Shown piece after piece: positions 8,484-15,772 of a DNA stretch of 64,000 bases. Position 1 is the stretch's first letter; each line of letters opens with the position of its first letter. The DNA lies in assembly GCA_024655885.1 (NCBI GenBank), contig JANLFN010000001.1, positions 248,001-312,000 of the forward strand, written 5' to 3'. The notes under the pieces are model-generated. The model did not search any database and was not told the DNA's origin. It was given only the letters and a program-made list of their open reading frames with translations. Made by a program: the position numbers and the translations under genes. This DNA comes from Eubacteriales bacterium. Its GTDB lineage: Bacteria; Bacillota; Clostridia; Acetivibrionales; JANLFN01.

Positions 8484-9581
8484 TTATCTTTTATTTACAG
8501 CTTTAATTATTGCATCGGGTATTTTATAAGATGGCACTACCACTTCAGCCCCACCTCTTTCTATTGCTTCCCTCGGCATCCCGAAAACCACTGCTGTAGA
8601 CTCATCCTCAGCTATAGTCACGCCTCCGGCCTTTCTTATCTTTACCATGGCGTCCGCTCCGTCGTCTCCCATTCCTGTCATAAGAACTCCGATTACATTC
8701 TCACCCCCAAAAGCATCCAGCACCGATTCCATGGTCACATTAACCGCAGGCATAAAAACCGTTTTGGGGCTGCTGGTGAGCCTAATGATTCCCCCTTCTC
8801 CCCGCACCAGCATCTGGTATCCGCCCGGGGCAAGGTACCCTCTGCCGTTTTGCAGCACATCTCCGGCTTCCGCTTCCTTGACCGGAATCCGGCATGCGTC
8901 ATTCAACCTTTTGGCAAAGGAAGCGGTAAAAGAGGGGGGCATGTGTTGTATGATAATTACAGCCGCTCTGAGGTCCTGCGGGAGCATGGGCAGCACCTCC
9001 ATAAGAGTACCCGGACCGCCGGTGGAAATACCAATGACCACTACCTTCGTCAGCTCCCTGCCTGCCGGTAAAACCGTTTTTTCCGCCGGTGCCGTTTTCT
9101 TTGGCAATGAGGTGCTGCGGTATCTTGCTACCCTGTCTCTTATATTTTTTTTGTTTACACTTTTATAAGCCAGCTTCACTTTTTGAATGATTTCCCTTCC
9201 GACCGCATGCAGGTTGCAGGATACGGTCCCCGAAGGCTTTGTGACATAGTCAAAAGCTCCGAGCTCCAAGGCTTCAAATGTAGTCAGCGCCCCTTCGGCA
9301 GTAAGGGAGCTTACCATTAAAACAGGCGTTTCCGGATACTCGCCCAGTATATATTGCAGGGATGTCAAACCATCCATCACCGGCATGTTGATATCCATCG
9401 TAACCACATCCGGCTTCAGGTCACGTACCTTTTCAATAGCATCCTGTCCGTCCCTGGCAGTCCCAGCCACTTCAAGACTTGAGTCGGTCATGATGATTTC
9501 CTTCAGCGATTTTCGCATCAGGGCTGAATCATCTACAATCAATACTCTTATTCTGTGGGTCACAAACATCACCTGCCGCAA
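8484..9581 (-). CDS. cheB: CheB-type methylesterase with receiver domain
   Basis: Receiver MDINMPVMDGL plus CheB catalytic motifs VVIGISTGGPGTL, QHMPPSFT, MTGMGDDGA. Confidence 0.95.
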   Translation of the reverse strand: MRQVMFVTHRIRVLIVDDSALMRKSLKEIIMTDSSLEVAGTARDGQDAIEKVRDLKPDVVTMDINMPVMDGLTSLQYILGEYPETPVLMVSSLTAEGALTTFEALELGAFDYVTKPSGTVSCNLHAVGREIIQKVKLAYKSVNKKNIRDRVARYRSTSLPKKTAPAEKTVLPAGRELTKVVVIGISTGGPGTLMEVLPMLPQDLRAAVIIIQHMPPSFTASFAKRLNDACRIPVKEAEAGDVLQNGRGYLAPGGYQMLVRGEGGIIRLTSSPKTVFMPAVNVTMESVLDAFGGENVIGVLMTGMGDDGADAMVKIRKAGGVTIAEDESTAVVFGMPREAIERGGAEVVVPSYKIPDAIIKAVNKR

Positions 9582-9657
9582 TTATCGGATAAACAGGGCT
9601 ATACCCCAGAGCAGAGTTTTTGCATGGTTCCGGAGCAATATCCCTAAAATCGAAAAC

Positions 9658-11148
9658 CTAACTGAAACTCAATATCTTACTGATATCCAGAATCAAAATC
9701 ATTCTCTTGCCACCGTCTAGCTTGGCAACGCTCTCCACATAGTCACTGTCCACTCCACTGCTTAAAATGTCGGGAGGGGCCTCGATCAACGTTTTCTCGA
9801 ACCGGAGCACTTCTGAAACCGAATCTACCACAATTCCTGTTCTCTTTCGGTTGAAATCAACAATAATAATCCTTGTGGCATCCGTTACCTGCTTTTCAGG
9901 GAGTTTAAAAAGCCTTCTCAAATCCAGGGCCGGGATGACATTTCCTCTAAGGTTTACAATCCCCTCTATGTAATAGGGAGCCCTGGGTATTTTGGTAACC
10001 TCTGTCATCCTGTTGATTTCCTGCACATTGTCTATTTTAATGCCATACTCTTCCATATCAATTTTGAACGTCACCAACTGCTCTTCGTCAAGCATCTGAC
10101 TTGTAATGCTCTTCTCCTCTGCCTGCTGTTCATAGGTATCCGCGTTGCCTGTGATTGTGCTGATTTCATCAGCAGAAATCAGCTTTGAGGGCTCAAGCAT
10201 CAGAATCATTCTTTTGCCGCTATTGAGCTTTGCCACACCCCTAAGCTGCTCTCCGCTCTGTGTGGAGAATTTAGGCGGAGGCTGGATAATACTCGTGGGC
10301 ACCCTCAAGACCTCCGAGATCTTGTCCACCATGATTCCGGCAGTGAATTTTCCCATATCCACCACAAGTATTCTGGTGTGGTCATTGATCTCCTTATACT
10401 CCATTCCGAAATAAGTCCTTAAGTTGATGATAGGGAGCAAGTTGTTACGTATGGAAACTACCCCTTCAATGTAGGCTTCGCAGTTTGGAACCTTTACGAT
10501 CTGAGGCACCCTGATGATTTCTTTCACCTTCATGATGCCGATGGCATATTCCTCTTTGTCCAGAAGGAATGAAACCAATTGTTCCTCATCAATAGCTTCA
10601 ACGCTGGTGCTATTTTCCACGGCGCTGTTCTCCTGCATGCCTTCATGGTGTTCATTTAGCCGGTCTTTCTCAGTACTGCCGACGCTCAAAGCCTTTACAA
10701 CATCCAAAAGCATGACAAGCCTGTTTCCATTGTCCAGCTTCACAACCCCGTTCAAATAGTCGGAATCCACATTTTTGACAATCTGCGGCGGGTCCTCAAT
10801 ATCTGCGATATTGACCCTCATTACCTCCGACACCTTATCCACAACCACTCCGGTCGCCTTACCTTCAACGTCAATGACAAGGACCCTGCTGTTTTCATCC
10901 TTGGTTTTTCTTTCCAGATTAAACCGGGTTCTTCCATCAATAATAGGCAGGACGTTCCCCCTCAAGTTGCAGGCACCTTCCACATAGCTGGGAGCATTCG
11001 GCACCTTCGTGATATCAGGAACTCGGATGATTTCTTTGACATCCATGATATCAGCCCCAAACTCATCTTCTCCAAGCAGGAAGGTAACTAGCTGGCGCTC
11101 TGTAAGGCTGGTATTGTTTATACCAAAAGCCATAACTATTCCCTCCAT
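9658..11148 (-). CDS. Triple CheW-domain coupling protein
   Basis: Three successive CheW modules each beginning EQLV(T/S)F / RQLVTF and containing GxxxLRGNVxPxxxxR-like motifs. Confidence 0.93.
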   Translation of the reverse strand: MEGIVMAFGINNTSLTERQLVTFLLGEDEFGADIMDVKEIIRVPDITKVPNAPSYVEGACNLRGNVLPIIDGRTRFNLERKTKDENSRVLVIDVEGKATGVVVDKVSEVMRVNIADIEDPPQIVKNVDSDYLNGVVKLDNGNRLVMLLDVVKALSVGSTEKDRLNEHHEGMQENSAVENSTSVEAIDEEQLVSFLLDKEEYAIGIMKVKEIIRVPQIVKVPNCEAYIEGVVSIRNNLLPIINLRTYFGMEYKEINDHTRILVVDMGKFTAGIMVDKISEVLRVPTSIIQPPPKFSTQSGEQLRGVAKLNSGKRMILMLEPSKLISADEISTITGNADTYEQQAEEKSITSQMLDEEQLVTFKIDMEEYGIKIDNVQEINRMTEVTKIPRAPYYIEGIVNLRGNVIPALDLRRLFKLPEKQVTDATRIIIVDFNRKRTGIVVDSVSEVLRFEKTLIEAPPDILSSGVDSDYVESVAKLDGGKRMILILDISKILSFS

Positions 11149-11151
11149 TCT

Positions 11152-13116
11152 TTACATGTTTTGAAGCTCATCAGCCAATCCCGATATTTCTTCAATTGCC
11201 TCAGCCAGCTCCTGCATCCCTTTTGCCTGTTCGGCAGCCGCCGTTGCAGCCTGTTGTGCTCCGCTGCTGGCTTCCTGAGCCGCGGCGGCAATCTGCTCAA
11301 CGCCCTTTCTCGCCTGTTCCAGCGCCACTAAAGATTCATCCGAACCCTTCTGAATTTCCTTGGCGCCTGAAAGTATCTTTATCATGCTGTCCTCAATTAC
11401 ATTCAGGTTGTGTGTCGTCTTCTTTGCCTTTTCCACCTCTGCGAAGGAGGTCCTGCTGGAAAGGTCAATGTCGGCCGCGACCCTTTGAATCTGGTTCTGT
11501 ATGCCCCTTACAAGGTCTTTTATCTTATCTGTATTTTCTGCGGATTCATTGGCAAGTGCTCTTATATCCCCGGCAACAACAGAGAAGCCCCTTCCGAATT
11601 CCCCTGCTCTTGCCGCTTCTATGGAGCCGTTTACAGCCAGCATATTTGTCTGTATGGTGACATTCACAATGGCATCGACGATTTTGTCAATTCTCCTGGT
11701 GGTCTCCTCAAGGCTCTTGATATTCCTGGCGGCCACCACACTGGCTTCAGCCGAGGACGAAATGCCGGCAATCATGTTATCGACCGCAACTTTATTGGCC
11801 TCTAACAGATTCTGGAGTTCGGCGATCTTATCTGCGGAGAAGCTTGCCCTTTCACTCATCTGCTTTGCAGCTACGGCAAGCCTTTCCGCCAGAACCGCAG
11901 CTTTATTGGTAAGTTCAGCCTGAGCCTGGGCTCCCGAAGATATCTGCTGCATAGCTTTTAATATTTCGCCTGCCGTTGAGTTGGCCTCCTCCACATTGGC
12001 GGACAATTCTTCGGAAGCGGCCGCAAGGGACTCGGAAGATTTCTGTGCGTCGGTAGACATCTTCAGGTCTTCGGCCATCTGAGCTAAATCCGCCGCACTC
12101 GCATTCAACTCATTGAAAGCCTTGTTCTGCATCTGGATGGACTTCTCCACTTCCTCCGCGGCACTGCTCTGCTGCTCGGCAGCCGCCGCAATCTGTTCGG
12201 CGATGGCCAGGAACTCGCCCGCTCCTTTGTTTGCATCCACTGCATTTTGGGATACCTCTGCAACACCCTTTTGCACCAATACAATCTCTTCATTAATTTT
12301 TATGAGGTCCGCAGTAGTTTTCTTTGCTTTCTCAACCTCATCATTGGCAGCCTTACCCGCATTTTCAATATCTACCACCACCACCTTTACATTATTCTGT
12401 ATTTCATTTACCAGCTCCCGGATATTCCTGGCCGACTTTTCAGAGGTTTCCGCAAGGTTCCTGACTTCATCCGCCACAACCGCAAAGCCTTTTCCGTGTT
12501 CCCCCGCCCTGGCAGCTTCTATGGCCGCATTCAGCGCAAGCAGGTTTGTCTGGTCCGCAATCCGGACCACCGCCTGCACAATTTCCCCGATCTCATTGGA
12601 CTGCTTCTCAAGCTCTCCTACCAGCTTCACTGATTCGATATTGGTATCTGCCGATTCCTTAATACCCTTGATCATTAGCTCAATATCGTTTGAGGTGTTT
12701 TCTATGAGCTCCTTTGCAATGTCCACCCTTTCCAGAGACTCCTTCGCATTCTTGTCGGCCACAACCGAAGCCTTGTCTATCTGGTTGATGGCGGCCCTTG
12801 ATTCTTCTGCGGCAGAAGATGCCTCGTTTGCTCCCTTGGCTATCTGCTGCATGGTTGCGCCCAATTCTTCAGCGGCGCTGCTGGCTTCTTCTATTCCTGA
12901 AGCCAACTGTTCTGTAGCTACCGCAATCCTTTCGGCTAACTGCTGCTGCTTTGCCAGCGTCCTGGCTTTCACCTTGTCCTGTGCCTGCTTTCTGGCCAGC
13001 TCCCGCTTTTTCTCCATTTCATCCGTGGCAGGTACTGACGCATGTGCCGCTCCCTGCTCAGTTCTGTCGCTTAAAGGCTTTGCAAGCTTTTTTTCCATAA
13101 CATTCGACCTCCTCAA
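11152..13116 (-). CDS. Cytoplasmic methyl-accepting chemotaxis protein with two tandem signalling hairpins
   Basis: Two hairpin tips: [39 protein letters not shown] and [39 protein letters not shown]; no hydrophobic TM segments. Confidence 0.92.
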
Positions 13117-13302
13117 AATTCATACTGTTTTAGTTGAAATGAATCTATCTGATAAATGTACAGAATACAGACCTGGTTCCTTTCCATATTCTTCACATCA
13201 CCATCCTGATTTTTTGACGCTATTGCAGTCCTAACATTTTTTCAATCCCACTGTTGACGGTCCACGCACTATAAGCAGCGACTTTGAAGCCATATTTAAA
13301 AG

Positions 13303-13545
13303 CTACATACTCCCTGTCTTATACTCCGGAATAAAAATCATATAATACATATTCACCCCATCCCCGGCAGGCTCATTCCCTAAATAGCCATCCCGGTATA
13401 ATGTGAGAATTTTCTGGCGGAGATCTTCTATACCGCAGAGGATGTTGTTTTGAATTAAAAGCCTGTGAATTTCCGCCAGGGTATTAAACTCGGACTCACT
13501 GCTTTTTATGTACCTTAAGAGTTCTTCATCAGTCAATTGAAGCAT
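13303..13545 (-). CDS. Small uncharacterised protein (80 aa) in chemosensory cluster
   Basis: Intact ORF between cheY and MCP genes, same strand, purine-rich upstream sequence; predicted helical. Confidence 0.65.
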   Translation of the reverse strand: MLQLTDEELLRYIKSSESEFNTLAEIHRLLIQNNILCGIEDLRQKILTLYRDGYLGNEPAGDGVNMYYMIFIPEYKTGSM

Positions 13546-13595: not shown

Positions 13596-13955
13596 TTATT
13601 TTTTAAATTTGTTCAGATTCTTTATCACCACCTCTTCTTTGTACGGCTTCACAATAAAGCCTTTTGCTCCGTTCAGCACGGCCTTCTGCACATAGGATTC
13701 CTGACCCATGGCTGATACCATAATTACCGTTGGCATGTAATCCATTTTTTTAAGCTCCATCATACATTCAATACCGTCCATTTCAGGCATCGTTATGTCA
13801 AGGGTAACAATATCCGGCTTCACTTCCTGGATTTTCTTCAGTGCCGCCTTGCCGTTTTCGGCTTCCCCCACAACCTCAAAACCGTTCCTTTCAAGCAACT
13901 GCTTAAGCTGCTTTCTTATAAAAACAGCATCATCTACAATTAATACCGTTGTCAT
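13596..13955 (-). CDS. CheY-like response regulator, first gene of the second chemosensory cluster
   Basis: VLIVDDAVFIRKQL, VTLDITMPEMDGIE, MVSAMGQES, FIVKPYKEE. Confidence 0.93.
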   Translation of the reverse strand: MTTVLIVDDAVFIRKQLKQLLERNGFEVVGEAENGKAALKKIQEVKPDIVTLDITMPEMDGIECMMELKKMDYMPTVIMVSAMGQESYVQKAVLNGAKGFIVKPYKEEVVIKNLNKFKK

Positions 13956-14137
13956 ATAACCCCCCCTCCTGATTAGATGTAAAATCCCGTTAATACCTCA
14001 TATGCCTTAATCGACTTCCCATTAAGCTGTTAGGTAGGACCTCCATTAAACTGATGTTTTTCTTTTTTATAGGTTTCCTTTATCCCTTCTCATTTTATTG
14101 CATATGGTTTTATCAATTTCTAAATTATTGTAAAATA

Positions 14138-14165
14138 ATGTAACAATATAGTTATTTTGTTGCAT
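14138..14165 (+). repeat. Left 28-bp inverted repeat (dif-like 11-6-11 core site)
   Basis: ATGTAACAATATAGTTATTTTGTTGCAT; reverse complement matches 14969-14996 at 27/28. Confidence 0.9.
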
Positions 14166-14207
14166 TATTTGCAAGAGAAAACGGATGTAATTCACCAAAA
14201 TAAGAAG

Positions 14208-14213
14208 TATAAT
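14208..14213 (+). promoter_or_regulatory. Putative -10 box for the recombinase gene
   Basis: Perfect TATAAT; -35 region weak. Confidence 0.35.
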
Positions 14214-14298
14214 AGTAATGAAAGATAAACAGGTGTTATTCATTTATGTAACATTTTTTCAAATTATTATTAATTAATTACATAGGAAGGTGGTATTT

Positions 14299-14859
14299 AT
14301 GACTGTTGAACCTATCAGAAACAAGGTAAAGATTAAACAAATGTACCATTACTTAGCCGGAAAGGATTCAAGATATGGCTTGCTTTTCAAATTTGGGCTC
14401 AATACAGGTCTTAGAATAAGTGATATTCTGCCGGTTAAATTTAAAGATATCTGCAATGAATACGGCGAATTCCGGGATTATTTTATTTTAGCCGAGAAAA
14501 AGACAGGAAAGGAAAAAAAAATTAAGCTTAATAAAGCCTTACGCAAGGCTATTGAGGCCTATGCAAAGGATGAAAATTTAACACCCGACAGTTATCTGTT
14601 TTCAAGCAAAAAAGGCAAATATCTGGGCAGAATACAAGCCTACCGGGTCCTGAAAGAGGCCGCAGAAGTTATAGGAATTGAGAATTTTGGCACGCATAGC
14701 CTTCGTAAAACCTGGGGCTATTGGACCTATAAGGTATCCCGATATAATATAGGCCTAATTATGGATACTTTCAATCACAGTTCTCCAAATATAACCCTTA
14801 GGTATATTGGTGTTAACCAAGACCAAAAGGATGAGTTATATTCACTGGTACAATTTTAA
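14299..14859 (+). CDS. Small tyrosine recombinase (phage integrase family, catalytic domain only)
   Basis: NTGLRISDIL (Arg I), HSLRKTWGYW (HxxR), FNHSSPNITLRYIGV (His, Tyr nucleophile); SD AGGAAGG before ATG 14299; track also allows GTG at 14290. Confidence 0.93.
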   Translation: MTVEPIRNKVKIKQMYHYLAGKDSRYGLLFKFGLNTGLRISDILPVKFKDICNEYGEFRDYFILAEKKTGKEKKIKLNKALRKAIEAYAKDENLTPDSYLFSSKKGKYLGRIQAYRVLKEAAEVIGIENFGTHSLRKTWGYWTYKVSRYNIGLIMDTFNHSSPNITLRYIGVNQDQKDELYSLVQF

Positions 14860-14968
14860 TAAAAATACGGACCCTGAAAGATTTTTATTTCTATTGGAAA
14901 TATTTAATAATTTTTGTTTTTTTTTAAGATCATGAAGGAATTTCTCGTATAATGTCGAATAATTTTTT

Positions 14969-14996
14969 ATGCAACAAAATAACTATATTGTTGCAT
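14969..14996 (-). repeat. Right 28-bp inverted repeat (dif-like 11-6-11 core site)
   Basis: ATGCAACAAAA-TAACTA-TATTGTTGCAT; arms are inverted repeats of each other at 10/11. Confidence 0.9.
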
Positions 14997-15200: not shown

Positions 15201-15560
15201 TTAGTTATAGGTATAGGCAGTAGAAGTATCAATACCTATTGTATTTGTAGTTCTATCCCATGTCACATTAAAATTAAGAACTTTTGCAATATCCCGAGCT
15301 TGAAATAGTTACTACCACCAATATTATGTGCAGTAAGTTGAACCTCTTGCTTGCTTAGGTAAATTTTGAAAGTGATAATCGTTGCTTCCTTTGAGGTTGG
15401 ATTTTTCCATGCTTCAAGTTCTCCACCTGTGGGAGTATATGCCTTACTTGGTATCAGATTTATAGCGTTTTTAGTTTCATCCCAGCTTACTTCAAATTGC
15501 TTAGCTGTCCCGTTTATAGCCATGCCTATATCTCTCAATTTAAAATAGTTACTGCCATTG
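15201..15560 (-). pseudogene. Remnant of a stalk / copper-amine-oxidase-N-like repeat protein, 5'-truncated and frameshifted
   Basis: INGSNYFKLRDIGMAINGTAKQFEVSWDETKNAINLIPSKAYTP...GGSNYFKL then a 1-nt deletion restores (R)DIAKVLNFNVTWDRTTNTIGIDTSTAYTYN-stop in the next frame. Confidence 0.7.
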
Positions 15561-15772
15561 ATGCATAAGTACGAAATTATTATTTATTGGAGCGAAGAAG
15601 ACGAAGCATATATTGCCCCGAAGCGCCCGAATTGCCAGGCTGTGCTTCTGACGGCAAAACCTATCTTGAAGCGTTAAAAAACATAGAAACGGTTATCGAA
15701 GAATGGATAGAGACAGCAAAATTATTAGGTAGGCCAATTCCAAAGCCAAAAGGAAGGCTGATTTTTGCATAA
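15561..15772 (+). pseudogene. HicB-like antitoxin remnant with a frameshift
   Basis: Frame from 15561: MHKYEIIIYWSEEDEAYIA, then frame change into PELPGCASDGKTYLEALKNIETVIEEWIETAKLLGRPIPKPKGRLIFA (HicB pattern). Confidence 0.7.

Follow-up and report, generated by a model that had tools for sequence, protein, structure and literature searches.

Organization of the locus

Within the window, i.e., the whole 64,000-nucleotide stretch that was analysed, two inverted 28-bp sites delimit a cassette of 859 bp whose sole gene encodes a tyrosine recombinase (Table 1). On the outer side of the upstream site (siteU), and divergent from the recombinase gene, lies a gene for a CheY-type response regulator that is presumed to be the target of the cassette and starts 182 bp from the site. 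The genes that follow it may be co-transcribed with cheY; among their products, the methyl-accepting chemotaxis protein (MCP) was recognized by Pfam, and the CheW and CheB types were assigned from their translations. Beyond the downstream site (siteD), a short ORF (15263-15560) with two diverged 18-bp repeats lying 240 bp apart (at 15300 and 15540) gave no Pfam match and is perhaps a decayed repeat protein, and a HicB-type antitoxin-like remnant (15566-15772), frameshifted and with no adjoining HicA, was judged by eye.

Table 1. Features of the cassette and its surroundings (positions in the window)
Feature	Position	Strand	Details
Genes after cheY	8484..13545	-	80-aa ORF, methyl-accepting chemotaxis protein, CheW-type, CheB-type
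cheY-type response regulator, presumed target	13596..13955	-	119 aa; Response_reg E=1.7e-31
Region between siteU and cheY	13956..14137	-	Proposed cheY 5' leader in the ON state
siteU, upstream recombination site	14138..14165		11-6-11; crossover hexamer TAGTTA at 14149-14154
Candidate operator palindrome	14246..14283		38 bp, over the recombinase promoter; ATGTAACA..N..TTACAT
Tyrosine recombinase	14299..14859	+	186 aa; start ATG 14299, stop 14857-14859; inside the segment predicted to invert
Outward sigmaH-type promoter, predicted	14934..14962	+	-35 GAAGGAATT (14934-14942), 11-bp spacer, -10 GTCGAATAA (14954-14962)
siteD, downstream recombination site	14969..14996		Inverted relative to siteU; crossover hexamer TAACTA at 14980-14985

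A recombinase reduced to its catalytic domain

The first-pass annotation had described the only gene between the sites as a recombinase made of a catalytic domain alone, which the ORF list and a domain search both bear out. The protein carries a Phage_integrase domain (Pfam PF00589, E=1e-21), its AlphaFold2 model consists of the catalytic domain and nothing else (pLDDT 92.5), and the solved structures closest to this fold are XerH, XerA, and lambda Int. The R, HxxR, H, and Y motifs that had been noted correspond to R39, H133, R136, H160, and Y169, none of which varies across 53 homologues; by these residues and by its fold, the protein is a tyrosine recombinase. It nevertheless scores far under the equivalog cut-offs of XerD (42.3 vs 329.6 bits) and XerC (33.8 vs 335.15), as well as under those of the FimB/FimE-type subfamilies (PRK09871, 32.7 vs 222; PRK09870, 17.5 vs 221), and the N-terminal core-binding domain of XerC/XerD is absent from its 186 aa. 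The original label of "Xer/dif-type" is thus appropriate for the geometry of the sites and not for the protein. A dif-like chromosome-resolution site served by a single-subunit Xer system would agree with the 11-6-11 geometry and the Xer-like catalytic fold, but the low scores and the missing domain, together with several copies per genome, inverted site pairs, a variable centre, and a patchy distribution, leave this explanation with a negligible probability, and it was discarded on the grounds of score, domain composition, and number of copies. Weak matches of the region to a SET domain, in the recombinase search, and to a microRNA, in Rfam, are due to chance or are a consequence of the palindromic sites.

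Recombination sites with a pair-matched crossover hexamer

SiteU and siteD are 28-mers, each matching the reverse complement of the other at 27 of 28 positions, as first noticed; in 30 Markov-shuffled 2-kb sequences of equal composition, the best inverted match over 28 nt ranged from 20 to 24 and never attained 27. Their proposed division into two 11-bp arms and a 6-bp centre is upheld by the alignment of 51 non-redundant site pairs from this and related cassettes, in which the segment that is identical within pairs covers exactly positions 12-17. These positions (T-NNNN-A) are the same within the pair in 50 of the 51 pairs, position 12 being always T and position 17 being A in all but one site copy. 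Between loci, positional identity of the hexamer is only 55%, with 33 distinct hexamers represented. The 11-bp arms, where strand exchange needs no homology, differ within pairs far more often than the hexamer does. A hexamer that is matched within a pair and free between loci would be expected if the 6-bp overlap has to match for the two sites of a locus to recombine; judging from sequence comparison, this combination is a hallmark of sites under constraint to remain recombination partners.

The four cassettes found in the genome under study (3.44 Mb, 65 contigs), detected at 76-100% protein identity of the recombinase, have four different hexamers (TAGTTA, TAGCAA, TGCTCA, and TGTCTA), and hexamers also differ in two other genomes with two cassettes each (L022/L056 and L052/L076). 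Cassettes that coexist in one genome should therefore not cross-react, each switch recombining only with itself. Across the 3.44 Mb, the strict site pattern occurs only at cassettes, with no occurrence in the control.

Predicted promoters, candidate operator, and leader

The predicted sigmaH-type promoter just inside siteD exits the cassette through this site, away from cheY in the assembled orientation. Two promoter forms are found at this place across cassettes, either TTGACA-N17-TATAAT-like or RnAGGAwww-N11-RnnGAAT. Among 50 loci, 30% have an outward sigmaA score of at least 9 (vs 1.2% of shuffles) and 34% an outward sigmaH score of at least 14 (vs 2.3%), and roughly one third of the cassettes are without a strong match to either; the inward strand at siteD and the left end of the cassette score at the background of the shuffles for both sigma factors. 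In the whole genome under study, the strict sigmaH pattern has five occurrences, namely at three cassettes, at spoVG, and at an ftsA-like gene (the latter two named from their translations), and its reversed control has none. Promoters assigned to SigH in C. difficile share this form, e.g., AGGATTATGAGAGTTCGTGTAGAATA (PMC7438776, Table 3), and it is by this resemblance that the cassette promoter is predicted to be of the sigmaH type. Between the recombinase stop codon and the promoter, 8 of 50 cassettes have an intrinsic terminator, where 0.2 would be expected. Of note, the right ends of six loci (L014, L017, L022, L024, L030, and L056) show a third promoter-like form, in which TTGTTGC precedes by about 25 bp a TATAAT sitting only 2-3 bp from siteD.

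Transcription of the recombinase gene itself appears, in good cases, to start from a promoter of about the form TTGAAT-N17-TATAAT, lying beneath a second palindrome that has the same arms as the sites. In the clearest loci this palindrome spans around 38-40 bp, lengths peaking at 38-39; the candidate operator of the window, 10 bp longer than a recombination site, is imperfect, and such an operator is clear in about a third of relatives. Arm pairs scoring at least 13/16 are present in 18 of 48 leaders, vs 7% of shuffles. The location of the palindrome over the promoter suggests that the recombinase represses its own gene.

Positional conservation was additionally observed 14-36 bp inside siteU in the 48 leaders (about 14179-14202 in the window), as a block of AAA plus a G/C-rich position preceding TTT on the leftward strand. 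This signal forms no RNA hairpin, a search for a bipartite motif at this edge rose only slightly above shuffles, and outward sigmaA and sigmaH promoters are not enriched there relative to shuffles; it could be a further promoter or a binding site.

An Rfam search of the region between siteU and cheY gave no match, and hence no riboswitch in the leader of this cassette. Nine independent loci (L013, L031, L033, L036, L042, L047, L050, L054, and L066; L115, a duplicate of L036, was left out) do have a c-di-GMP-I aptamer in Rfam, always between siteU and the target and on the target strand, some of them beginning 24-41 bp from siteU. More generally, in several loci the ribosome-binding site of the target or the riboswitch starts within about 10-40 bp of siteU, too close for a promoter to fit between them; the cassette itself must then contain it.

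Presumed target genes and orientation of the cassettes

When the flanking genes were clustered, the neighbour on the outer side of siteU proved in almost every case to be transcribed divergently from the recombinase and to come from a small set of families. By blastx, a target stands beside siteU in this divergent arrangement in 54 of 61 loci, or 55 with L040, where more sequence was read; the 54 comprise HD-GYP (13), MCP (11), CheY (10), CheW (6), FapA (5), GGDEF/EAL (5), and CheA (4) genes, assignments that Pfam confirmed on representatives. The right flank, beyond siteD, served as a control and shows no such enrichment. As the blastx reference set consisted of the flanks themselves, with the locus in question excluded, the list of families is not independent, while the left-right asymmetry is.

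In three loci (L017, L049, and L105), the target is found instead on the outer side of siteD and is transcribed away from the cassette, which is therefore reversed there. Both orientations are thus met among relatives, which the first-pass annotation had suggested looking for; that annotation had mentioned neither the adjoining target gene nor the outward promoter, the riboswitches, or the wider family. Its central inference, that recombination between the sites would invert the recombinase gene itself, gains support from these reversed cassettes, from the matched hexamers, and from the recurrence of the arrangement in 61 loci. The three reversed cassettes are all in different species, both orientations being found across species and none within one strain, so that an independent insertion in reverse could also have produced them. 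Assemblies strongly favour one orientation (about 55:3), and close syntenic pairs agree in theirs, so that flipping may be rare.

The orientation bias, its conservation in close relatives, and the related palindrome over the recombinase promoter would also suit a promoter cassette that formerly inverted, or was inserted either way, and that is now static, with its sites acting mainly as operators of the recombinase. A role as operators would however not require the four inner bases to be matched within a pair yet different between loci. In addition, the catalytic residues are invariant, the recombinase gene is intact in most loci, and sequencing reads reveal inversions at such places in other clostridia (PMC5903667). 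We consider a fossil of this kind very unlikely, and favour a switch that would still be able to invert.

Distribution and mode of spread

A scan of GTDB genomes yielded 79 loci, a number that grew when relatives and the class were searched as well. The distribution is patchy, with a homologue at E<=1e-40 in 10 of 60 relatives and 19 of 389 genomes of the class. Paired inverted sites surround the recombinase gene in 61 loci across Clostridia, which form a clade of at least 60% identity; nearly all loci at this identity have one site about 165 bp upstream of the gene and another, inverted, about 55-300 bp downstream. More than 50 homologues at 50% identity or less, mostly phage or plasmid recombinases of the phrog_216 family, have no such paired sites. 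In the recombinase tree, the four copies of the genome under study fall into different clades, save the sisters L003 and L004, which adjoin cheA and an MCP gene; in another genome (G045), a cassette adjoins cheW-cheA.

Four copies in one genome and in different clades, a patchy occurrence, and recombinases that are related yet adjoin different targets are also what a minimal transposable or integrative element would produce, the 28-bp inverted sites being then its ends and not those of an inversion switch. Against this, each end is a full palindromic site, the two hexamers are identical, and the sites are inverted and not direct, so that recombination would invert the segment instead of excising it; the kind of neighbour is moreover constant, and an outward promoter is present. 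Homology between L003 and L004 also extends about 65 bp beyond siteD, i.e., past the supposed boundary of the spreading unit. Lastly, Ruminiclostridium genomes without the cassette are also without the adjacent cheY-cheA operon, and a search of these relatives for an empty site with the target in place found none, the target operon being missing too. Because the homology runs past siteD and the cassette and the operon are absent together, the cassette seems not to be a transposon bounded by its sites, and it seems rather to travel together with its locus. Nor do relatives display the pattern expected if the repeats were debris of insertion-target duplication, an outcome considered from the start. 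A transposable element appears very unlikely, and the inversion switch is again the preferred reading.

The first 70 bp beyond siteD are conserved between related cassettes in several groups (L001/L007, L003/L004, L020/L025/L028, and L031/L036). These stretches contain TATAAT-like or TTGGTAAA-like sequences reading into the cassette, and could represent an old promoter of the target, a part of the spreading unit, or a further promoter or binding site.

A few unusual loci deserve mention. At L016 (1918-4691, C. ultunense DSM 10521), far-apart sites had raised the idea of cargo genes, which was dropped as they enclose repeated recombinase copies split by N runs, an assembly problem; the assembler may have been reacting to mixed orientations. 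Three sites at L040 come from a tandem repeat of cassette and MCP gene whose units meet at single N bases, which may reflect an assembly artefact. At L168 (4228-13923, Clostridium sp. Marseille-P2415), three identical cassettes alternate with near-identical MCP genes, again joined at single N bases, as a tandem array or an assembly artefact.

Comparison with known invertible elements

One of the closest known parallels is the Salmonella H segment, in which inversion by Hin between the inverted sites hixL and hixR redirects an outward promoter at the edge, that of fljBA, toward or away from a motility-related target. The cassettes resemble it in that the segment to be inverted holds the recombinase gene, the inverted sites are of comparable length, an outward promoter stands at the edge, and the target is related to motility. 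In contrast, Hin is a serine recombinase acting on sites with a 2-bp centre, while the cassettes have a tyrosine recombinase and a 6-bp centre, and are spread over Clostridia before many signalling genes. Both the size of the Hin segment and the presence of hin within it are documented (PMC5903667).

Also close are the RecV switches of C. difficile (flg, cwpV, pdcB/pdcC, and cmr), where a tyrosine recombinase flips elements placed ahead of flagellar and c-di-GMP genes; at cmr, a promoter that can be inverted occurs together with a c-di-GMP riboswitch (PMC8844915, PMC5903667, PMC9286219). The type of enzyme, the targets, and the pairing of inversion with a riboswitch are thus shared. However, RecV works in trans on several elements of 154-230 bp, whereas each cassette brings along an enzyme and a hexamer of its own. 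At cmr the riboswitch is upstream of the switch; in the loci of this family that have one, it falls between the switch and the gene.

Inversion signatures in read pairs from Clostridia, located mostly near signalling and chemotaxis genes, have been reported and termed undescribed; those named are from Anaerotignum propionicum (MCP), Desulfitobacterium dehalogenans (HD-type phosphodiesterase), and C. thermocellum DSM 1313 (two signatures), and neither an enzyme nor a site consensus, promoter, or family is given for them in the text (PMC5903667). Since they have the same kinds of neighbours in the same bacterial class, these signatures very likely belong in part to the cassette family. An 844-bp fimbrial segment of Providencia stuartii likewise encloses its recombinase (PMC5903667) and matches the cassettes in size; it differs in its 14-bp repeats, its fimbrial target, and its proteobacterial host. 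In terms of protein family, the cassette recombinase belongs to phrog_216 (E=8e-59, 40-50% identity), like the orphan recombinases of Bacillota plasmids and phages, all of which, among those examined, are devoid of paired inverted sites.

With inverted sites of matched crossover and a predicted outward promoter at one end, the cassettes, which are real and widespread, most probably operate as invertible-promoter switches built on a tyrosine recombinase. A search of a literature made up largely of non-subscription journals found no description of such a cassette module.

A proposed self-inverting switch

Taken together, these data make it highly probable that the cassette is an autonomous, self-inverting promoter switch for a chemotaxis gene. 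The recombinase would bind both 28-bp sites, with one monomer per 11-bp arm, cleave 6 bp apart at T-NNNN-A, and exchange strands between the inverted sites, and in so doing turn around the 0.8-kb segment in which its own gene lies. The assembled state would correspond to OFF, with the outward promoter inside siteD aimed away from the chemotaxis gene, and inversion would aim it into the gene beyond siteU (ON). The ON transcript would then start at the cassette edge, cross the site and the leader, including the c-di-GMP-I riboswitch in some relatives, and enter the target. At 14138-14996, both the inversion of the cassette and the ensuing change in cheY expression are predictions made from the sequence. 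As the promoter there is of the predicted sigmaH type, the ON state would place cheY, and perhaps the MCP, CheW, and CheB genes after it, under transition-phase control.

On a broader scale, we regard it as reasonably likely that one-gene tyrosine-recombinase cassettes constitute a Clostridia-wide, plug-in phase-variation module. Each with a private hexamer and placed before chemotaxis, c-di-GMP, or flagellar genes, they would add to a single transcript the layers of inversion (chance), sigmaH or sigmaA (growth phase), and in some cases a riboswitch (c-di-GMP), with several independent switches per cell. The cassettes would in this way link inversion to a sigma factor of the sporulation transition. 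Their pair-matched, copy-specific hexamers represent a natural set of possibly orthogonal sites for one small enzyme, which could be a useful tool. If true, this scheme would account for the undescribed inversion signatures next to chemotaxis and HD-phosphodiesterase genes of clostridia. Motility and c-di-GMP signalling would then be subject to phase variation as a general, modular feature of Clostridia from soil and gut and of thermophilic ones, not as a peculiarity confined to C. difficile.
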